IMG/VR virus record: IMGVR_UViG_3300021511_000019
Coordinates: 1-38,461 of that record
From: a virus
DNA: 38,461 bases
Reading direction: 5' to 3' (one strand)
The notes under the pieces are model-generated. The model searched no databases. It was given only the letters and a program-made list of their open reading frames with translations, and was not told where the DNA came from. Position numbers and translations under genes: made by a program. Position 1 is the first letter of the stretch; each line of letters starts with the position of its first letter. Of this stretch, positions 2,118 to 32,244 are shown one piece after another.

Positions 2118-2633
2118 TTAAATTAATGCTGATAATTTCCCGCCACTTGTTGGGACTGCTAAAGAGCTAAAGCCTTTATAATCGCCGGGGCCATCAAAAG
2201 CAAAAGAGTCAGAGCCGTTTTCCCTTATAATCTCGTCTAATTTTACACCAGCGAGTAGCGAATCGTCAATAAAATTCTTTATATAATTTTCCATTCCTGT
2301 AGGCAAATCTTGCAAAATATATATGAGAATAGACGCTGGAAAAATTTCAACTATTTCACAATTAAAACCAGCTAGATAATAAAAAATACCATAAATAGCC
2401 TTTGCGCCTCCTTGACTCACATTTTGAGCAATCTTAGCTTTTATATAGCTTTTATAATCTACATCAGACAGGCCTATTCTATCTTGTCCAATAATAGTAC
2501 CTAAATTATCAAGTTGATCTCCTTCACAAGAATCTACATCCAGTCTATCGTAGAAATCCCATAGTTTGTCTTCTTCATCTTGAATTTCATCTAAAAAAAA
2601 GGCTTCCATTATTTTTTCAAAATTAGTTGCCAT
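2118..2633 (-). CDS. Baseplate wedge protein, DUF2612-like (gpI equivalent)
   Basis: 171 residues. The stretch GDQLDNLGTIIGQDR followed by YKSYIKAKIAQNVSQGG is the pattern of the DUF2612 phage family, which takes the place of P2 gpI in many contractile-tail phages. Family knowledge: it joins the baseplate wedge to the tail fibre. The next gene downstream is the fibre, as expected. The C-terminal about 25 residues (FAFDGPGDYKGFSSL) are Gly/Ser rich and typical of the family end. Start ATG is preceded by AGGAGGGG. Confidence 0.75.
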   Translation of the reverse strand: MATNFEKIMEAFFLDEIQDEEDKLWDFYDRLDVDSCEGDQLDNLGTIIGQDRIGLSDVDYKSYIKAKIAQNVSQGGAKAIYGIFYYLAGFNCEIVEIFPASILIYILQDLPTGMENYIKNFIDDSLLAGVKLDEIIRENGSDSFAFDGPGDYKGFSSLAVPTSGGKLSALI

Positions 2634-2646
2634 TTTTTACCCCTCC

Positions 2647-4794
2647 TTAAACTGCTTTAGTAAGTGTGTCATACCACCAACTTGTACCATTTGACATAAC
2701 TCTATAAACATTAGAGTCAGCATTATTGTCATCAATGTATATTTCAAAGTTTTTTCCAACTGCTGCCGGACTTGTAAAAAGTGTATCTAATTCTGCATCT
2801 GTTGGAGGATTTGAAACATTATCTACAGCAATTCTTTTTACACTGTCCCAATTATTACGCCAAAAAGCTACTTGAGAACCCGATATAACAATATCGCCTT
2901 TAATGTATTCTGTTATTAATAATGCACCTGCAGTATTCATTGTTACCGTTGCACCGTCATCAAATTTGCAATATCTTGCTGTCACTGTTGAACTTGCATC
3001 TAATGTCCAAGAAATCGCAGGCAAATCACAAAAATTAAAATTATAAACATATCCCATGTTTATTGTATCTCCTGCTAAGAGTTTTGTATTATTAAACTCT
3101 CCGCCATTGTATACTGCTGTTGAAAGCCCTGAACTTTCACAATGATTAAACTGAGAATTAGCATCATAAGTTCCACCTTGACATATAGAATAGTAAGCAA
3201 AAAAAGTTGTTAGCCCTGTAAAATTTCCGCCATTTAATTCACAATATCGAGCGGCTACAATTCCCCCTGTAATAGATTGTGCTGAAAGATCAAGAATACA
3301 TTTTTCAAATTGCAAAAATTGGCCTGCTGATAGTGTTAATTGCTCAACTGTACAATCGCTTATATATCTTAAATTTGCTGGATTAGTAACAGTACTTGTT
3401 AAATTTCCCGTTAATCTTGTTGATTTATTTACACCTTCTATTGATACATTATCTTTAAATACAATTGCCTCTGAATTAGTTCCAAAAATTTTTATTGTCC
3501 AAGGTGTTGAAGTTGTTGGCGTTTGACCTGCAACATATGCATCAGCCGCCACCCATGTAGAATATACTTTTCCCGGCACTGTTGTCAATCCCGTTCCTAC
3601 AATAACGGTTCTAGGGCCAGACAAACCATTTAAAGCTGTGTCAATTGCTGCTTGCGTTTCTACTGCTGCAACTCCATTTGAAGTATTATCATAAATTAAT
3701 CCCTTGTTTACCCAAGTTGTATCTGTTAATGTTGGCTCAGGGCCAAAAGAAGCATAAGAATTGAATGTTGCAGTTCCACCGTTTCCATCAATTGTTATTG
3801 CTGTTTTAACTGTAGAACTATATAGCTCTACGCTTGATCCATTGCCTGTTGCACTTATTGTATCAACATAACCGTTTCTTACTTTTATATCTCCTGTACC
3901 TGTAGCAACTGTCAAAGTTTTGTTTGCATAAACATCATCTAAATAAATATGTCCATTAACAACACTAATATTATCATTTAGATAACTATTGCTTATATCA
4001 ATACTATTAGAGCCTGTTAGTGTAATTGTTCCAGCGGAGTCATTTATAAAAGGGCAGTTTTTAAACAAATGTGTTGTATCTCCAAAAGTAACACCATCAA
4101 ATTGTGTTGTTCTTGCATCAATTGAAAATACAGAGCCTCCCCAAACTTTACAATCTTGAAATACCATACCTCCACCTACAGTGTTAGTATCTCCATAGGT
4201 TCCTGAGTTTATTGTGCAATCGAAAAAAGACCCATATGAATTTACAGTGGTTATTGAAATTGTAGACAACTCACACTCTTCAAATTTAAAATCGCCCTGT
4301 GTAGAAGTTCCACCGGAAACAATACAATTTTTACACCATACATATGTTCCTGCTGTATTTGAAATAGTTGTAATTTCACAATCTATAAATGCTGCATAAT
4401 AGTTTGTACATGTACTCGTAATTGTTCCTGTTAGCCTTGTGCTTCCTTTTGCTCCTTGTATATAAGTATAATCTTTTAAAATTATATTTTCTGCATTTGT
4501 ACCATAAATTATAATTATCCATGGTGTTGCTGCGGCTGGTGTCTGACTTTGAACATATGTGTCTGCTGCTGTCCAAGTATTATAAACTTTGCCAGTTACA
4601 GCCGTTAATGTAGAGTCAACAATAACGGTCCTTTGTCCAATGCCATCCGTTCCACCAACGACATCTCCGTAATCGAACAAGACTACTTTGTTACTATCAC
4701 TTGAATCTAGCCCCATAAAACTATCACCTGATGCTGGTGTAACCGTTGTTTTATCTTCTGCTCTTTCGCCCGGATAGGTCTTTGTACCACTCAT
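2647..4794 (-). CDS. Large tail spike with two duplicated beta-helix modules
   Basis: 715 residues of short beta strands rich in Thr, Asn and Gly, a right-handed beta-helix pattern. Residues 55-131 and 395-471 are copies of one module: RTVIV, a YxTWxAAD segment, an IxIxGTNxExIxxKD segment and STRLTG are shared. Each copy is followed by its own run of irregular coils with FxxCxx-like cysteines, so the chain looks like two head-to-tail helices. The last about 60 residues (TDAELDTLF, SPAAVGKNFEIYIDD, GTSWWYDTL) resemble a C-terminal cap found on other phage surface proteins. It sits between an Ig-like gene and the gpI-type gene, so it is probably a second receptor-binding spike. Confidence 0.65.
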   Translation of the reverse strand: MSGTKTYPGERAEDKTTVTPASGDSFMGLDSSDSNKVVLFDYGDVVGGTDGIGQRTVIVDSTLTAVTGKVYNTWTAADTYVQSQTPAAATPWIIIIYGTNAENIILKDYTYIQGAKGSTRLTGTITSTCTNYYAAFIDCEITTISNTAGTYVWCKNCIVSGGTSTQGDFKFEECELSTISITTVNSYGSFFDCTINSGTYGDTNTVGGGMVFQDCKVWGGSVFSIDARTTQFDGVTFGDTTHLFKNCPFINDSAGTITLTGSNSIDISNSYLNDNISVVNGHIYLDDVYANKTLTVATGTGDIKVRNGYVDTISATGNGSSVELYSSTVKTAITIDGNGGTATFNSYASFGPEPTLTDTTWVNKGLIYDNTSNGVAAVETQAAIDTALNGLSGPRTVIVGTGLTTVPGKVYSTWVAADAYVAGQTPTTSTPWTIKIFGTNSEAIVFKDNVSIEGVNKSTRLTGNLTSTVTNPANLRYISDCTVEQLTLSAGQFLQFEKCILDLSAQSITGGIVAARYCELNGGNFTGLTTFFAYYSICQGGTYDANSQFNHCESSGLSTAVYNGGEFNNTKLLAGDTINMGYVYNFNFCDLPAISWTLDASSTVTARYCKFDDGATVTMNTAGALLITEYIKGDIVISGSQVAFWRNNWDSVKRIAVDNVSNPPTDAELDTLFTSPAAVGKNFEIYIDDNNADSNVYRVMSNGTSWWYDTLTKAV

Positions 4795-12470: not shown

Positions 12471-14171
12471 TTATACTACCAGTTTTCCGGTAATTGTTAT
12501 TGTATTAATAGCACCCTGCATTGTTGCACTAAATGTAACATTGTTCAACCAGCGTGCTGCCTTTTCACTTGATGGAATTGCAGATAATTCTGGGGCACTA
12601 ACAACAATAGAATCCTCTGTAATTATGCCGTAATTTACACCATATGTGATTAATGTGGATTCAATAATGTTTTTTACTTTTGCAATTCCCTGAACTGTAA
12701 AAGGAATTTTGTTAGCATTAACTAATGCAGCAAAAACAGCTTCGCCGATTCTTGCCGTTAACAAGTCAATTCCTCTTGTCACGTCTCTATATTCTCCACT
12801 AGCTGCAATACCATGTGATGAAATAATATTAACGCCGCCAACTTCTTCAAAATAATTATAAGCTTTTTGATCTAAGTAGCCTAGTTGCGCTGTTGTTAAA
12901 GAATCTGCTGTAACCCCAGAAAGTGACTGATAAGCCCAATTAACTGAACCCGGTTTCTCTGGCAAACAACGACCGTCCCACGCAGCATTTAACCAGTACG
13001 TTGTATCTCCTGAATAAACACAAGCTGTCCTGTCATAATCTAATGCCTCAAGTGCATAACCAATGTCACTTGTTGCAGATGTTAAAGCATTAGAGTCAGC
13101 AGTAATTAAACACATTTGTTTTGTGTCTGCTTCAACTATAGCTGCAAGTGCTGTAAATTCTGATACTGAAGCTGTTACAACTCTTTCGATTGGTATAAAA
13201 TCATACCAAGTATTATCAGCCGCTTTTATTGCTGCATAAGCAGTAGCCCATGTTTCAATAGCAATTGTTTCTGTGTTTATGTAATCATAACTTGTTGTTG
13301 GTCCTGTCAAGCCTGATTCGTCACAAGTTGTTGCAAAGTCAGTACCCACATCACCGTCAAAAGTAACTGTAAACCCTTCTTGATCTCCGGCTTGTGTAGC
13401 TCCTGAATTAAGCGCAACTGTAACAGTAGTTATGTTTGTTAACAACTCAATAGCAGATTTCACGACACCAACTGCCGCATCATATGCAATCCCAGCAGTG
13501 GTTTCACCACCACAAGTCAACGTAAATGTTCCTGCTGTGGCATCTGCGTCAAAACTAATGCTAACTTGGTTTGGAACAGCAGTGGTTGCGTGTGTCGCTT
13601 CATCAACTTCAGTAATGGTTGCTGTTGTTGGTCCTGTTAAGCCTGAAATAGTCGCTGTTACTGTTAATTTTATTGAATCAGCAAAAGCAATTGTAAAACC
13701 TTCTGCGTCGCCTGCTTGTGTAGCACCAGTGTTTAATGCTACTGTAACACCTGAAACATTGGAAAGTGCATTGATTGCTGTTTGAACATCAGAAGCACTA
13801 TCATCATAATCAATGTTGCCAGTAGTATTTCCACCAATTGTCAAGGTAAAAGTTCCCGCTGTTGCATCTGCATCAAATACAATACTAGTTTGCTGGTTTT
13901 CTGTTTCTTTTTTTCTTCCGATCAAAAAGCTTTCAACTGAAACATCTTGAGCCATAAGATTGATCGCAGCAATGTACAAATCATCACTTGTCGCATATGG
14001 CCCGCCGTTAGTTGTAAGCATATCCGCAGGATCACTATAAGAAACTGCTCTAGATAATTGTTTCCCGGCTGTATCACCTACAAGTATAGGTGTCCCAAAT
14101 CCGGTCTGCATTACTCGAGCGCTTTCTTTTGTGATACTAACAGACACAATATTGCTTATCTGTGTACCCAT
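12471..14171 (-). CDS. Tail sheath protein (DUF3383-like) with two inserted repeats
   Basis: 566 residues. The N-terminal part (SNIVSVSITKESARVMQTGF, then GTPILVGD) and the part after residue 300 (ETWATAYAAIKAADNTWYDF, LPEKPGSVNWAYQSL, IPFTVQGIAKVKNIIESTLI) match DUF3383 sheaths of contractile tails. Residues about 94-190 and about 201-297 are two copies of an inserted beta domain (FDADATAGTFTLT, GATQAGDxEGFT, SGLTGPTT). They sit in the middle of the sheath, probably on its outer face. The same domain is in the gene just upstream. Without the inserts the sheath would be about 370 residues. Confidence 0.8.
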   Translation of the reverse strand: MGTQISNIVSVSITKESARVMQTGFGTPILVGDTAGKQLSRAVSYSDPADMLTTNGGPYATSDDLYIAAINLMAQDVSVESFLIGRKKETENQQTSIVFDADATAGTFTLTIGGNTTGNIDYDDSASDVQTAINALSNVSGVTVALNTGATQAGDAEGFTIAFADSIKLTVTATISGLTGPTTATITEVDEATHATTAVPNQVSISFDADATAGTFTLTCGGETTAGIAYDAAVGVVKSAIELLTNITTVTVALNSGATQAGDQEGFTVTFDGDVGTDFATTCDESGLTGPTTSYDYINTETIAIETWATAYAAIKAADNTWYDFIPIERVVTASVSEFTALAAIVEADTKQMCLITADSNALTSATSDIGYALEALDYDRTACVYSGDTTYWLNAAWDGRCLPEKPGSVNWAYQSLSGVTADSLTTAQLGYLDQKAYNYFEEVGGVNIISSHGIAASGEYRDVTRGIDLLTARIGEAVFAALVNANKIPFTVQGIAKVKNIIESTLITYGVNYGIITEDSIVVSAPELSAIPSSEKAARWLNNVTFSATMQGAINTITITGKLVV

Positions 14172-14180
14172 TTTATCCTC

Positions 14181-15023
14181 CTAAGAATTTATATCTTGTT
14201 CAATCACTTCAACAATAGTATTGCCCTGATCGCTGGTCATGGTTCCATCTGCTGTGACTTTGTGAATTTCTCCAACAAGTTCGTCAACATCTTCGCCATA
14301 TGCCATAGAAAAATCAATTTCAGCCCGGTTTTCCCATTTAGTGTCAAGAAGCTCTGACAAATCTCTTGACGGTGAGATACTACGAATAGCCACCCCCTCA
14401 TCATAAAGATAATTGTAAGCTTTTAGGTTGTTCGGGATTCTTTCAATACTTTCCATGTATTCCATATATTTATCTTCAGCAATTATTGTTGCTGTCAAGG
14501 TGAATGAAGTTTTTGTGTGTGTTGTGTAAATATCTTCCTCTTTGTAGCTTTTAGCTGGGTCGTTTTCTTTTCTAACACTAAAAACGTTTAAAACACATAG
14601 TGGCAAATCAGGTCTTTCATATTCTGAAAAGCCCCAATCAATGCTGATGTTATCACTTCCTGTTATTAATTTTGTAACTGTTGCACTAGTAACTCCTGTC
14701 AAAGCTGATACGTCAACAATGACATTGGTAAATGTTGTACTGGCGTCAGCCCCGGTAAACTCAATGCATATATTTAAGGATGGCATATTTGCAGATACAG
14801 AAACCTCATTAATTCCTGCCAAAAGTTCTAAAGCTGTCTTTATTTGAGCGGCTGTCGCATCATATGCAATTGCAGCGGTTGTCTCAGCATCTAATTGTAT
14901 TGTAAAAGTTCCTGCTGTGGCTCTAGCGTCAAAACTAATCTTTTGTACTTCATTTGGATTTAAAAGGCTGTTAAATGCATCGTAAATAGCATCTTCTTTA
15001 GCTGAGCTTAATCTATGAGCCAT
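14181..15023 (-). CDS. Neck/tail terminator-like protein with one inserted repeat
   Basis: 280 residues. Residues about 25-121 are a third copy of the beta domain seen twice in the sheath (SFDARATAGTFTIQL, ETTAAIAYDATAAQIKTALE). The rest, about 180 residues, has the size and place (just before a DUF3383 sheath) of the phage neck terminator family of such phages. It includes SIDWGFSEYERPDLPLCVLN and DLSELLDTKWENRAEIDFSM. Family knowledge: this protein caps the tube top and joins the neck. The call rests on place more than on motif. Confidence 0.55.
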   Translation of the reverse strand: MAHRLSSAKEDAIYDAFNSLLNPNEVQKISFDARATAGTFTIQLDAETTAAIAYDATAAQIKTALELLAGINEVSVSANMPSLNICIEFTGADASTTFTNVIVDVSALTGVTSATVTKLITGSDNISIDWGFSEYERPDLPLCVLNVFSVRKENDPAKSYKEEDIYTTHTKTSFTLTATIIAEDKYMEYMESIERIPNNLKAYNYLYDEGVAIRSISPSRDLSELLDTKWENRAEIDFSMAYGEDVDELVGEIHKVTADGTMTSDQGNTIVEVIEQDINS

Positions 15024-16260: not shown

Positions 16261-17040
16261 CTAGTCTGTGACAGGCTCTTCCAAATCAAAAAAACTAACA
16301 GCGGAACCAGCCGGAACCAGCCTATTATATCTTCTGTTTCTGATAGAAAAAGTATAGTAGATTTCTTGTGAAGTATCATCTGGATAAGTCATGTTATCTG
16401 TTTCAACAAGTTCTAGTTCAAAATAACCATTTGCATCAGGATCAACAGTTTGTGCTGTTCCATCAATCATAGTTGCATCTTTGTATTGGACGTTATTAAC
16501 ATTTAGCTGCACTGTTACAGGTGAAGTTTTGACAGAGCCTAAAACACCCGCTACATATCCATAGACAGTTCTTGTTGTGACAGTCTCTTCTTGTGCTTTG
16601 TAATTATATTCAATTGTCATTGTATCAATTGACGGAGTTGTACTTCCATCATCAGAGTGCAAGTAGACAACTGGTCTTATTGCTTGCCCTGTTGCCGCAA
16701 TTGTCAAATCATCAATGTTGGTGTTTATGTCTGACGCAGTGTTTGTTTGTGCGACTGTGCCATCACTAGCTGCCCATGCTGCACCTGTCCAATACATTTC
16801 AGTTCCAGCTAACTCTAAAGTAAAAGTCACTGTGTCGCTTCCTGCTTCTGTAACTGTTGCAGAAAAAGAAACTAAATCATCCGTATAGATTGTTGCTACA
16901 GGTGTTATTGTTCCATCTGAAGTGTCATAAGGTCCGGGCGCACCAGCACATTGAGCAACGCCACCAGTTACTTCAACCTCGCTTACATTATAGGTATAAT
17001 TTGTTGATTCTGTAAAAGGATATATCGCGGATAATGCCAT
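16261..17040 (-). CDS. Virion surface protein of unknown function
   Basis: 259 residues, almost entirely beta strand and turn (Thr, Asp and Val rich). It begins MALSAIYPFTESTNYTYN. One internal segment (LAGTEMYWTGAAW) and a C-terminal Ig- or transthyretin-like region (NGYFELELVETDN, then YYTFSIRNRRYNR) suggest two beta sandwiches. It sits between the long fibre and the neck genes, so a head or neck decoration is likely. I do not recognise the family. SD is GGAGG. Confidence 0.55.
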   Translation of the reverse strand: MALSAIYPFTESTNYTYNVSEVEVTGGVAQCAGAPGPYDTSDGTITPVATIYTDDLVSFSATVTEAGSDTVTFTLELAGTEMYWTGAAWAASDGTVAQTNTASDINTNIDDLTIAATGQAIRPVVYLHSDDGSTTPSIDTMTIEYNYKAQEETVTTRTVYGYVAGVLGSVKTSPVTVQLNVNNVQYKDATMIDGTAQTVDPDANGYFELELVETDNMTYPDDTSQEIYYTFSIRNRRYNRLVPAGSAVSFFDLEEPVTD

Positions 17041-17050
17041 AATTCCCTCC

Positions 17051-20000
17051 TTATTTGATTAAGTATAGATCTGCGTCTTCATTCGCATTTTTTATAAAAA
17101 TCCAATCTGGATTTATTGGGCTACCTTTTTTAATATAAACTTGTCCAACTAAACCAACTATATTCCATTCTGGCCTATCTTCTCTGTTTATATATTCTTG
17201 CTCTGGGTTATATTCTGGATTGATTTTTGGATAACCATCTTTATCGTAAAAAACTGCACCAAAATTATCTTTTAAATACCTATCTTTCCAGCCTAACCCT
17301 TTGTTTCCAATAAAACATGCAGTGGCAGAAACAACACCAAAAGGCTTTTCTCCTTCTTTTGCTTCTCTTATTTTGCCATCTTTATCAAAAACAACAGGTG
17401 TTCCATTAGCAATTGATTCCCCATTATAGGATTCAAAATATTCTGCAAAGTCATAACTATTACTTGTCACAGTTCCATCCGCTTCGACGTCGCCATCACC
17501 TTTAAAAATAACTCTACAATTAGAACCATTTGAAATAGTATAAAGGTTTCCATTTGCTGCTACTGCTGAAACTGTGTCAGCGCCATCATGCTGGTTTGCT
17601 TCTGCTCTAATAACACCAATGGCAGCCGTTGATGTTGCTGTGCTTGCAGTTCCTTGTTGGAACGCACGCCAATTAAAAGTATAGCCACTTTGTGATCCAT
17701 CTTGATACGCTCTAATTGTCAAGCCACCATTGTCAGCAAATGACTTAATGAAAGAACAATAAGTGTCTGTCTCGTCTTGAGTAACTAAGCCGTGTGCAAT
17801 ATCAGAGGATTTGAAAGTCAAAATATCAGCATCTGCCGAACCTTGATTTAAACAAATGCCCCCTAAACTTACGTCAGGACTTATTTCACCTCCTGTTGCA
17901 AACTTGCCATCGTTAGTTATATTTAATCTTCTAGTGTTGTTTGTATAAATATCAAAATCAGTATCTTCATAATTTAAGATAAAAGCATTAGAGCTAGAAT
18001 CAACTCCAATAGCTGTTCCATCCGTTGCTGTATGTCCTGTGTTAGACGTTGTAAATGCTTGTACACTAGTTGTTGTATTTGGTCCTAGATGTAACAATCT
18101 TGTTGGGTCTGATTGGTTGCCTATACCTACATTTCCATTTGTATCAATAGATATAGCAGGATCGCTACCATCATCATAAAAAAGATCTACTGTATCTGCT
18201 GATTCTCTATAAAACAAACCACCTTTAAAATCACCCTCATTATATAGTTCATATCCGGGAGCATTAGTTCCAGCAACACCCGTGTGATTTGTCCTAATTC
18301 TTGCTGCATTTTGAGTTGAACCTTCAACTAAAAGTTTTACACTGCTTCCAGATTCACCATCCATCAAAATAGCTCCGTCTTGATCGATAGTCATTCTTAG
18401 ATCTTGTGTTGTCGTGGCGTCATCTATTGTATAAAATAATATTTGTGAGCCATGTGATGTTCCATTCCAATTCTCTGTTGCTTTAAAATCTATTTCAGCA
18501 CTATTACCAAAAGCCGAGCCGTCATACCCCTGCCCCCTGATTGCTCCTGTATAATCTCCGCTGTTTATTGCGGCTGGCACAGCTTCTGTTCCTCTTGCTT
18601 TTCTTAATCTTATTAAAGAAGATCCAGTTGCATTTTCATATCTTGTTAGTGCTAAAGTTGAATTGTTAACATCTTCTCCTGAAACCTCTAACTTATAATT
18701 AGAAGACGTAGTACCTATTCCGACATAGCCATCCTTTGTAATTCTCATTGCTTCTTGTAGGGACGCTGTATCTGTTGAGATCTGAAAATATATATCAGTG
18801 GGGACCTTTGTTCCTGACGTGCCATTTTGAACAACACCTATTGCTGCACCCACATCACGAAGATTACCACTATCTCCTCCCCACCATGAAATTCTACCTA
18901 AATTTTCACCATCTGCTGTTTCTGCTGCTGTTCCAATTGTAGCTGAAGATGATTTAGAAAATTGTAATTCTGGCTGATGTGAATCTGTCGTACTATATGA
19001 ATTAATACTTAATTCAGAATCAGAAGCACTTTTAGATAAATCGAAATCAGTAATTGGATTACTTGCTCCAACACCAATATAGCCGTTAGATGTTATTCTA
19101 ATTCTTTCATCAACAGAACCATTTAAAGCTGTTTTAAATACTAAATACCCATCTTGTGTTGATGCAGTAGTTGTCCAGACCTCCTCTTTACCTGCTACTA
19201 TTGTCGCTATTGATGCTCTAGCATCTGCGCTGGTTCCACCCTCAAAATTAATCACTGACAAGCCAGCATCATCCTCGTGCCGCTGATTTCTTATATTTAC
19301 TTTTAAGGAGCCGTTAACATCATCAAAAACTTCAAACTTTTCAGTCGGTGAATCAGTACCAATACCCACATTTCCACCGTTAAAATATGTGATACTATCA
19401 GTGGAAATAAGAACTTGCACAATACCACTATTAGATAATTGCATTTTAGTATCATTTCCAGTGTCGGAATAAACATTAAACATTTCATCTGTACCCTGAT
19501 TCCACAATATTCCGTTATTAGTAGTAGCATTGGCGGTATTAATCATAATACCATCTCCAGTAGAAGTATTATTTACTTTTAAAGCATAATTTGTGCCATC
19601 TCCATCTATATCTAGTCGTGCATTTGGAGTTGTTTTTCCTATTCCAATATTACCGTCATTTCCTTGTATAAAAAAAGCATGTGTATCTGTATCACTTTCA
19701 ATCCTAAAATCAATATCACTACCAGTTTCATTTATAACAACCTCTGTATTACTTTCTAGGGTAATCATCTCTGTTGCATTATTTCCTATAATAACTTTTG
19801 TATTAGTAGGATTGTATAGCATAAATTCACCAGAAGCATTAAGTGCAATAAATGGAGCAACGAAGAAACCTTGTCCGCTCACTGAATTACTAAATTGCAA
19901 ACTTGCAAAATTAGCGCCTGTGTGATGTATTTCTGCACCATGAGCACCAACAACAGCAGTTTCCATGTAAAAAGCTTTACCAGTTCCAGTATTATAAACC

Positions 20001-20959
20001 TCAAAAGCTGTAGGATTGTTTGTCACATCATTTTGATTGATTATAAGAGCTGATGTGTTGCCTGTATCTGCAACAGTAATTGTTGGTGTTCCCTCTCCTG
20101 TTGTAGCACTTATGGTGTTGCCACCTTCATAAGCGTCTTGAAAAGTTACGCCAGAGGACAAAGCTAAATCAGTAAAAGTTATCCCTGTGCTTGATCCACT
20201 TCCAGTTTCCCAGACTCCATCTGTTCCAGCTCTTATAACGTCAACAGTCACTTTTGTTATTGCTCCTGCAACTGTTGTGTCAGTAACAAGCTGATTTTGG
20301 GTGAAATCTTCTACTGTAGCAGTCAGACCAATACCCCTAACTATCAAAACATTTGCAGCGTGAGACAAAACCTCATAAAGTCCATTATTTTCGTCATTAT
20401 TTGCACCACTGACTTGAATTATATCACTAAGAGCAAATGTAGTCGCCCCTGTTGTTGCAATCGTTGGATTTGAAACAGCTGCAACACCAGCGGTAAAACC
20501 ACCAGCCGCTACAGTGTCAATAGTTGCAGTAGGTAAACGATTGACTACAAGACCACCAGTTTGTGCAACTGCAACAGTATATCCATCATTCATATATAGG
20601 TGATTGTCCCCCACACGAATTGTTTCTGACTCTATAGAAGAAGAGTCACCCTGAACAATTAAGTTGCCTTTTATTGTTACGTCTCCATTTGGGCCAACAA
20701 CAAATTCGTCTGAATTGATAGCAAGACTATCACCTGTTCCAGTATTTGTGACAACCAAAGCTTCTGGGTTGTTGGTAACATCGTTTTGAACAACTGTTAA
20801 TCCGACTACGTTACCAGTATCTGCAACACTAAATGTCAATGCTCCTTCTGCAGTAACACCAGCGATTGTATTTCCTCCTTCATAGGCACCCTGCAAGTCA
20901 GAAACAGCACTCGCACCAGACGAAGCGGCTTTTCGCCATCCGAAATCTTTAGTATTCAT
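17051..20959 (-). CDS. 1302-residue fibre with C-terminal self-cleaving (Peptidase G2-like) domain
   Basis: Residues 21-80 and 272-330 are copies of one block (AYEGGNTI, TVADTGN, NDVTNNP, NTGTG). From about residue 410 to 1150 the chain carries irregular repeats ending in GxVGIGTxxPxxKLEV-like motifs, as in fibre shafts. The last about 139 residues begin SNSYDFAEYFES and contain FGVVSATACFIGN, GWKDRYLKDNFG, INPEYNPEQEYINR and RPEWNIVGLVGQVYI. This matches the Peptidase G2 autoproteolytic domain known from phi29-type neck appendages, where it helps trimers fold and is then cut off. The gene lies in the head module, not with the tail fibres. Confidence 0.7.
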   Translation of the reverse strand: MNTKDFGWRKAASSGASAVSDLQGAYEGGNTIAGVTAEGALTFSVADTGNVVGLTVVQNDVTNNPEALVVTNTGTGDSLAINSDEFVVGPNGDVTIKGNLIVQGDSSSIESETIRVGDNHLYMNDGYTVAVAQTGGLVVNRLPTATIDTVAAGGFTAGVAAVSNPTIATTGATTFALSDIIQVSGANNDENNGLYEVLSHAANVLIVRGIGLTATVEDFTQNQLVTDTTVAGAITKVTVDVIRAGTDGVWETGSGSSTGITFTDLALSSGVTFQDAYEGGNTISATTGEGTPTITVADTGNTSALIINQNDVTNNPTAFEVYNTGTGKAFYMETAVVGAHGAEIHHTGANFASLQFSNSVSGQGFFVAPFIALNASGEFMLYNPTNTKVIIGNNATEMITLESNTEVVINETGSDIDFRIESDTDTHAFFIQGNDGNIGIGKTTPNARLDIDGDGTNYALKVNNTSTGDGIMINTANATTNNGILWNQGTDEMFNVYSDTGNDTKMQLSNSGIVQVLISTDSITYFNGGNVGIGTDSPTEKFEVFDDVNGSLKVNIRNQRHEDDAGLSVINFEGGTSADARASIATIVAGKEEVWTTTASTQDGYLVFKTALNGSVDERIRITSNGYIGVGASNPITDFDLSKSASDSELSINSYSTTDSHQPELQFSKSSSATIGTAAETADGENLGRISWWGGDSGNLRDVGAAIGVVQNGTSGTKVPTDIYFQISTDTASLQEAMRITKDGYVGIGTTSSNYKLEVSGEDVNNSTLALTRYENATGSSLIRLRKARGTEAVPAAINSGDYTGAIRGQGYDGSAFGNSAEIDFKATENWNGTSHGSQILFYTIDDATTTQDLRMTIDQDGAILMDGESGSSVKLLVEGSTQNAARIRTNHTGVAGTNAPGYELYNEGDFKGGLFYRESADTVDLFYDDGSDPAISIDTNGNVGIGNQSDPTRLLHLGPNTTTSVQAFTTSNTGHTATDGTAIGVDSSSNAFILNYEDTDFDIYTNNTRRLNITNDGKFATGGEISPDVSLGGICLNQGSADADILTFKSSDIAHGLVTQDETDTYCSFIKSFADNGGLTIRAYQDGSQSGYTFNWRAFQQGTASTATSTAAIGVIRAEANQHDGADTVSAVAANGNLYTISNGSNCRVIFKGDGDVEADGTVTSNSYDFAEYFESYNGESIANGTPVVFDKDGKIREAKEGEKPFGVVSATACFIGNKGLGWKDRYLKDNFGAVFYDKDGYPKINPEYNPEQEYINREDRPEWNIVGLVGQVYIKKGSPINPDWIFIKNANEDADLYLIK

Positions 20960-21602: not shown

Positions 21603-22751
21603 TTAACCAAGTATACGACAAGCCAGTTCAGGATAGAGCGTTTTAACTCCGAATAGACAGTCAAAAGAAATAAGATTTTTTTTAGAATCGTTGTCATATC
21701 CCATAACTACACGCATGCTTAGACCGTTTGGAAGTTGTGCTGTGTATGCACTAGCATTTGTTGCTCCTAATGGAACTGCAAGCGGTGCAGAAACTAAAGC
21801 AAACGCATTTCTGTGAAATGCAAGTGAAGGGATATGTGCGCCTGCTGTTTCATCAGCAAAAGCAACAGTATCTGTATCAGCAGTTGCGCCTCTTAATGCT
21901 GGATAAATTGAAACTGTAACAGCACCAGCAACAGCCGCGGCAGAATCAGCAGTAACAACATATTGTCCAGCGGCAGACCCTGTTTCAATTGTAAAAATAT
22001 CACCTTCTAATACTGTATCTGTAGAAGTTCCTGCAGCAGATTCAATATTAAAAGTTGTTGCACCAACTGCCTGAATTCCATTTGAAGTCAAATCTGTAAG
22101 CGCTGTATAATCACCAGCTGTATGAGTTGTGACATTCTGATCCATATAAGTATCAAAACCCATTACACGGCCCATATTAGCATTTCTTAGTCCCTGATTC
22201 CATCCAGATTTATCAACTTCTACAAGTGAATCAAGTTGAAGTAATTCAGCTTGTGAAATTGGATCAAATACAATACGTCTTTGAGCCATCGGGACCTTAG
22301 CAATATTAAGAACTTTCATTGGGTCTGTAATGTCGCTTAGTGCGCTTGGAGTTGTACCGGATGCACCAGTAAAAGCAAAAACATCTTTATATAATGCACA
22401 TAGTTTTTGATCTACAAGCTCATTGATCGCAATTACAGCACCATCGATTACCTGTGCGCCAAAATCAACAATATCAAGACTAAGTTCTTTTGTTGTGATT
22501 TCAACTGAAACATCAGCATGAATATCAAGTGTTACAGAAACACTTGCCTCAGTAACGTTTTGTGCTGAAATTGTTGTTGAAAATTCATCTGCGGTAAATA
22601 CAGCAGGTTTTCTAACTGTAATAGTATCGCCAACCTGTTTAAATTCTTTTGAATACTCTGTGTGTACAAGTCCACCCATAACTTGTGTTGATTCTAGGCG
22701 TACAAGTGCCTCTCTTGCAATTATTGTTGGGGTTAATAGTGTATTAGCCAT
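21603..22751 (-). CDS. Major capsid protein (P22 coat-like)
   Basis: 382 residues. The start MANTLLTPTIIAREALVRLE, then VHTEYSKEFKQVGDTITVRK, VTEASVSVTLDIHADVSVEI and LSLDIVDFGAQVID are the typical opening of P22 gp5-like coats with the HK97 fold. Residues about 210-300 are a Thr/Ala-rich beta insertion that corresponds in place to the P22 I-domain. The end (MRVVMGYDNDSKKNLISFDC, LFGVKTLYPELA) is also typical. Upstream are scaffold and MuF genes as expected. Confidence 0.85.
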   Translation of the reverse strand: MANTLLTPTIIAREALVRLESTQVMGGLVHTEYSKEFKQVGDTITVRKPAVFTADEFSTTISAQNVTEASVSVTLDIHADVSVEITTKELSLDIVDFGAQVIDGAVIAINELVDQKLCALYKDVFAFTGASGTTPSALSDITDPMKVLNIAKVPMAQRRIVFDPISQAELLQLDSLVEVDKSGWNQGLRNANMGRVMGFDTYMDQNVTTHTAGDYTALTDLTSNGIQAVGATTFNIESAAGTSTDTVLEGDIFTIETGSAAGQYVVTADSAAAVAGAVTVSIYPALRGATADTDTVAFADETAGAHIPSLAFHRNAFALVSAPLAVPLGATNASAYTAQLPNGLSMRVVMGYDNDSKKNLISFDCLFGVKTLYPELACRILG

Positions 22752-32170: not shown

Positions 32171-32244
32171 TGGTGGGAAGTAAGGGAGTCGAACCCCTAC
32201 CGTCCGGTTATGAGCCGGGCACGCTACCATTACGCTAACCTCCC
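32171..32244 (-). tRNA. tRNA-Met (CAU anticodon), or tRNA-Ile2
   Basis: Acceptor GGGAGGT pairs with ACTTCCC (one G-U). The anticodon loop is CTCATAA with CAT in the middle, the T arm is AGGGG-TTCGACT-CCCTT, and the 3' end ACCA is encoded. The first pair is G-C, so it is not a normal initiator tRNA. CAU can also belong to an Ile tRNA whose C34 becomes lysidine. The anticodon stem has one C-A mismatch. The flanks 32082-32170 and 32245-32294 hold nothing else I can name. Confidence 0.85.

Follow-up and report, generated by a model that had tools for sequence, protein, structure and literature searches.

The phage record IMGVR_UViG_3300021511_000019, analysed here as one window of 38,461 nucleotides, carries a domain of ~96 residues three times: two tandem copies in the tail sheath protein and one in the tail terminator protein encoded beside it. 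All three are copies of a mobile phage virion domain that is already known. The explanation that best covers the findings as a whole, and that we hold to be rather probable, is that these copies sit in tandem in the sheath slot and as an insertion in the terminator, face outward, and most likely make weak contacts with the host surface. Public data already hold precedents for the domain, for its mobility and, in Gordonia phage Skog, for its occurrence on a sheath. A literature search did not find a description of a tandem pair in one sheath slot combined with a further copy in the neighbouring terminator, and this doubled, two-gene arrangement appears to be previously undescribed.

The sheath and terminator proteins and their domain copies

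The two genes, their core regions and the domain copies are located as follows.

12471..14171, minus strand: tail sheath protein, DUF3383 / phrog_205, 566 aa (PF11863, 7.4e-18; phrog_205, 7.4e-74)
13902..14171, minus strand: N-terminal sheath core, residues 1-90, aligned with DUF3383 sheaths and ending at the IGRK edge of the slot
13605..13892, minus strand: sheath copy 1 (c1), residues 94-189 (profile i-E 4e-27)
13275..13568, minus strand: sheath copy 2 (c2), residues 202-299 (profile i-E 1e-28)
12474..13262, minus strand: C-terminal sheath core, residues 304-566, beginning shortly ahead of the slot's DNTWY edge
14181..15023, minus strand: neck / tail terminator protein, 280 aa (PF23961, 1.1e-11; phrog_7975, 2e-9)
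14661..14948, minus strand: terminator copy 3 (c3), residues 26-121 (profile i-E 4.4e-30)

The identities given to both genes in the initial annotation, a sheath and a neck or terminator protein, are upheld by profile scores above the respective cut-offs (sheath against PF11863, 65.1 bits, cut-off 34.9; terminator against PF23961, 45.1 bits, cut-off 27) and by fold matches. The N- and C-terminal parts of the sheath together form a sheath core fold: the sheath model matched the Sf14 sheath (9c3b) with a Z score of 34.7 over 382 aligned residues, and the Pam3 sheath, which is without such a domain, with a Z score of 27.1 (307 residues, 3.1 A). The C-terminal core is ~31-37% identical to Otagovirus sheaths and 59% identical to the sheath of a related viral contig, L062. 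The terminator model matched the Sf14 neck chain 9c39_F with a Z score of 15.8. The sheath gene comes after that of the terminator and is followed by those for a tube-like protein (KPP10_Orf10 / phrog_280), a tail assembly chaperone and a tape measure; hub and wedge genes are also among the neighbours, and the module around both genes fits a contractile tail.

The three copies were aligned in pairs, and the significance of each alignment was measured against composition-matched shuffles. BLOSUM62 scores were 255 for c1/c2 (54/89 identical, 26 SD over shuffles), 158 for c2/c3 (41/84, 18 SD) and 150 for c1/c3 (36/91, 15 SD). No similarity was found between the sheath and the terminator once the copies were removed (score 38; shuffles averaged 34, with an SD of 5.5), and a profile search of the whole record found no domain copies beyond these three. 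The initial proposal of three copies of one domain in two neighbouring tail genes thus stands at 15-26 SD over shuffles, and the residue ranges first given (94-190, 201-297 and 25-121) lie within 1-2 residues of the profile boundaries. The nucleotide span 12760-15023 does contain the copies, but these occupy 13275-13892 and 14661-14948, and position 12760 falls in sheath core. Similarly, the motif SGLTGPTT is exact in both sheath copies but reads SALTGVTS in the terminator copy. The copies are not an assembly repeat, because they differ widely in DNA. The segments are rich in Thr and Ala, and a chance or low-complexity resemblance might be suspected from such a composition; this is extremely improbable, as it is refuted by the shuffle scores of 15-26 SD and by a 1.8 A match of the terminator copy to an experimental structure, that of Bxb1 gp23.

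AlphaFold models of the terminator and the sheath had pLDDT values of 87.7 and 83.8, respectively; two rows from annotated records were left out of the input alignment of the sheath model. All three copies were modelled as separate domains outside the sheath and terminator cores. In the sheath model, c1 comprises strands at 93-99, 105-112 and 116-121, a helix at 126-134 and strands across 142-188, with pLDDT of about 60-95 and weaker confidence (about 60-78) across much of the copy. The second copy is an independent domain, and the linker between c1 and c2 is of very low confidence. The models have one helix flanked by strands in each copy, at residues 58-66 of the terminator and at 126-134 and 234-242 of the sheath, which a plain Ig sandwich would not have; no Ig family was among the matches listed, though the domain may still be Ig-like. 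The strands of the "beta domain" originally described are therefore present, but with one helix between them the predicted domain is alpha/beta and not pure beta, and the models present it as a self-folding unit. No copy was placed inside either core by these single-chain models, which agrees with the external position first claimed for them, and the sheath core by itself matches sheaths lacking the domain.

Occurrence of the domain in other virion proteins

No model for the domain, here named TAGTFTL, was found in Pfam or NCBIfam, and weak matches to Flagellin_IN, ParD and LacI were taken as chance. PHROG profiles of major tail proteins match it in their C-terminal parts, and the sheath profile phrog_2839 matches it at about positions 62-154. 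The closest structural counterpart discussed here is in mycobacteriophage Bxb1, for which the term "CTE-like" is used in passages of PMC13252515. The domain matched Bxb1 gp23 in sequence with E 4.7e-21, the capsid with 2.5e-5 and the tail tube with 1.9e-4. In a fold comparison made from the terminator copy (residues 23-122 of the model), Bxb1 gp23 (9d93_Ma) aligned over 100 residues with a Z score of 14.7, an rmsd of 1.8 A and 31% identity. In Bxb1 the same domain is present in several copies in gp23, at the capsid C-terminus and at the tail-tube C-terminus (PDB 9d93, 9d9w, 9d94; Z 14.7, 12.6, 10.1), so that, as in the present phage, one domain is reused across several virion proteins. Bxb1 differs in being a siphophage, with the domain on its tail-tip protein, capsid and tube and not on a sheath or terminator.

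Public viral contigs carry the domain in a head decoration protein (L012), at the C-termini of a P22-type capsid and a major tail protein (L009/L014), in a baseplate hub (L017) and in fibre-like proteins (L010, L015). Four tandem copies are present in a structural protein of 1217 aa at 1472-5122 of L076, a contig of 103.6 kb. Because it is present in unrelated virion proteins, TAGTFTL is a mobile virion domain. The same domain occupies residues 64-154 of the contractile tail sheath of Gordonia phage Skog (phrog_2839). That sheath belongs to another family (weak Phage_sheath_1 match, phrog_279-like) and has a single copy, and the domain was not found in the three genes directly upstream of it. 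No matches to c1, c3 or the whole terminator were found by tblastn against cultured phages, and a single-sequence scan of viral contigs with this sheath found no relative; the relatives described below came from alignment-based searches, with hand-composed consensus-like queries used as search probes only.

Proteins of the Courthouse gp33 type (L097 1634-3619) in Mycobacterium phages Courthouse, Ariel, MiaZeal, Optimus, Minerva, Wanda and Baka are labelled "tail sheath" in RefSeq and mostly minor tail protein in GenBank. The profile matches of Courthouse gp33 are to families of minor tail proteins (phrog_106, 6.6e-81). The RefSeq label is probably a domain-driven error, because gp33 meets the sheath profile phrog_2839 only across the shared mobile domain. 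The domain would thus account for one way in which public records come to carry mistaken "tail sheath" labels.

The sheath slot and the neck insertions

Alignment of related sheaths revealed a modular slot between an IGR(K/R) motif and a D.xWY motif. Nearly every DUF3383 sheath examined carries one accessory domain of ~80-100 residues in this slot. The sheaths of Otagovirus, Sf14, Bas63 and PhiTE share the DUF3383 core with the sheath described here, and those of Otagovirus, like other DUF3383 sheaths, also carry one extra domain of 80-100 residues in the same slot; they differ in that the domain is single and of another sequence type. Sixteen contigs (L046/47, L048-L062) have one TAGTFTL-type domain in the slot, and in L067 the slot is reduced to a 26-residue linker in a sheath of only 342 aa. 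Among the sheaths examined, only that of this phage has two slot domains in tandem. Because the slot holds one domain in nearly all DUF3383 sheaths examined, the sheath copies are not foreign inserts in a bare core. As judged from the alignment, the pair is a lineage-specific doubling in an existing slot, unusual in the type of domain and in its doubling.

Whether the sheath copies and the usual DUF3383 slot domain belong to one family, the copies being a divergent and duplicated native domain, is close to evenly balanced, and we lean slightly against it. Both occupants share the slot and the order strand-strand-helix-strand, their profiles match collinearly (P 0.0005-0.0036 for a single comparison), and the sheath model aligns over 382 residues with the Sf14 sheath, which has a slot domain, as against about 310 with those of Pam3 and PhiTE. 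Against this, HHalign gave a low probability of 9-31%, and a profile of the native domain barely detects the copies of this phage. The two types of slot occupant are probably remote relatives. A shared family would be a statement on origin and is compatible with the outward-facing mobile domain that we prefer.

In the terminator, the domain follows the first helix and precedes the first strand of the core. Most relatives have a terminator of 164-180 aa without an insert, no insert of the TAGTFTL type was found in the two Otagovirus terminators examined, and the terminator of L062 has the same domain at the same site. Comparison with these relatives marks the terminator domain as a true insertion; the description of all copies as inserts in the initial annotation therefore applies to the terminator, but not to the sheath copies, which fill a slot that is occupied in nearly all DUF3383 sheaths examined. 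Between this phage and L062 the terminator inserts are 63% identical and the terminator cores 34%, which points to either strong constraint on the insert or its later exchange.

Other neck proteins have also gained domains. L066 encodes a 295-aa terminator (2611-3495) with a domain of the other type in its mid-region (residues about 65-165), which is identical at 34/72 positions to the domain in its own sheath slot (12 SD); this is a second, independent terminator insertion. In most of L046-L060, a phrog_939 neck protein (in L046, at 2379-3011) contains, as an insertion, a domain of the type seen in Otagovirus sheaths (E about 1e-4 to 1e-10), and the phrog_939 homologue of the present phage (15023-15349, 108 aa) is without one. 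As a tentative generalisation, which we put below even chances, the exterior of the contractile tail from the neck down may be a modular display surface, in which the sheath slot and several neck-ring sites take interchangeable domains of two types, so that sheath and neck would display matching adhesive modules, with number and type varying among relatives. Neck proteins would then have acquired domains on three or more occasions, each at a different site: at the terminator N-terminus in the window and L062, in the terminator mid-region in L066, and in phrog_939 in L046-L060.

Copying history and probable role of the domains

The domain had initially been thought to spread by copying between the adjacent genes. 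This claim is weakened for recent events; a transfer long ago, out of the sheath gene into that of the terminator, fits the data. If copying or gene conversion between the genes had been recent, excess identity at synonymous positions would be expected. The c2 and c3 copies do share a 91-base stretch of about 80% DNA identity, and their identical codons at identical residues slightly exceed the codon-usage expectation (26 against 19.7, p 0.024, uncorrected). For c1/c2 and c1/c3, however, codon identity is as expected (p 0.09 and 0.36), and the codon test speaks against recent gene conversion as the main explanation. In the tree, the terminator copies of this phage and L062 pair with support of 100/98, the two sheath copies of this phage pair at 81/78, and the sheath and terminator copies of the phage group split from copies in other proteins at 91/94, on an unstarred branch. 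A tree with c1, c2 and c3 as a single clade was 15 log units worse (p-AU 0.06, short of formal rejection), so that derivation of c3 from the sheath copies of this very phage is disfavoured. Taken together, these results make recent copying quite improbable. Any copying predates the split of the window and L062, because their terminator copies pair, and, with codon identity near the codon-usage expectation, the copying is old. It is plausible that c3 descends from one of the sheath copies of the phage group, which fits the tree, although the tree does not settle the branch order within the group.

Accessory domains are already known from other sheaths. Judging from the single-chain models and related sheaths, the domains of this phage would stand out from the outer face of the sheath and from that of the terminator ring, at the end of the tail next to the head. 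At 0.15 nm of tail per tape-measure residue and 3.9 nm per sheath ring, and if the tape measure of 581 aa sets the tail length, the tail is estimated at ~87 nm, with ~22 hexameric rings and 134 sheath subunits, and two copies on each subunit would give about 270 domain copies per virion. Most likely, many weak, reversible contacts with host-surface glycans would keep the virion close to the cell until the baseplate takes hold. Passages of a survey of sheaths (PMC9230969) describe extra domains as generally away from the tail tube, and propose for them a possible role in adhesion to cells or in cementing the tail. The type 2 and type 3 sheaths described there, which have additional Ig-like domains, resemble the present one in having accessory domains on a conserved core and away from the tube; they differ in that those passages give no domain shared with a terminator. 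Ig-like domains on the capsid and tail tube of phage Douge have been shown to bind glycans of mycobacteria (PMC13033339), and many copies of a small domain cover the virion surface as proposed here. The Douge domains are described as Ig-like, whereas the present model has a helix, and they were not among the matches of a sequence search with the TAGTFTL domain. With no sequence relationship detected between the two, the glycan evidence is an analogy.

Added tail stability is the main alternative to adhesion, and the two may coexist. Neighbouring sheath copies might touch, with the terminator copy carrying this lattice on to the capping ring, and the uncontracted sheath would thereby be stiffer. 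This would account for the same domain type on the sheath and on its capping ring, cementing by extra sheath domains has been proposed, as in phage 812 (in the passages of PMC9230969 noted above), and the greater conservation of the terminator insert than of the terminator core would agree with it. However, the slot is empty in L067 and Pam3, indicating that a slot domain is not needed for a working sheath, and non-contractile tails, capsids and hubs carry the domain as well. We consider it unlikely that stabilisation is the main role, and adhesion is the favoured putative function. Sheaths on the same core form a natural series, running from an empty slot through a single type A or a single type B domain to a type B pair, with the same domain also on the capping ring, and this makes adhesion and stability testable by comparison.

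Several other features of the window were noted. A fibre-like protein of 1302 aa (17051-20959), with a C-terminal self-cleaving Peptidase_G2 domain (3.6e-35), is encoded between the capsid and neck genes and could be a neck fibre or whisker. No convincing family match was found for the 259-aa protein (16261-17040) between the fibre gene and the neck genes. Residues 216-300 of the major capsid protein (21603-22751, phrog_283) also match the distal tail protein profile phrog_1302 (7.9e-8) and are perhaps another shared accessory domain. A tRNA-Met gene with anticodon CAT is present at 32171-32244.
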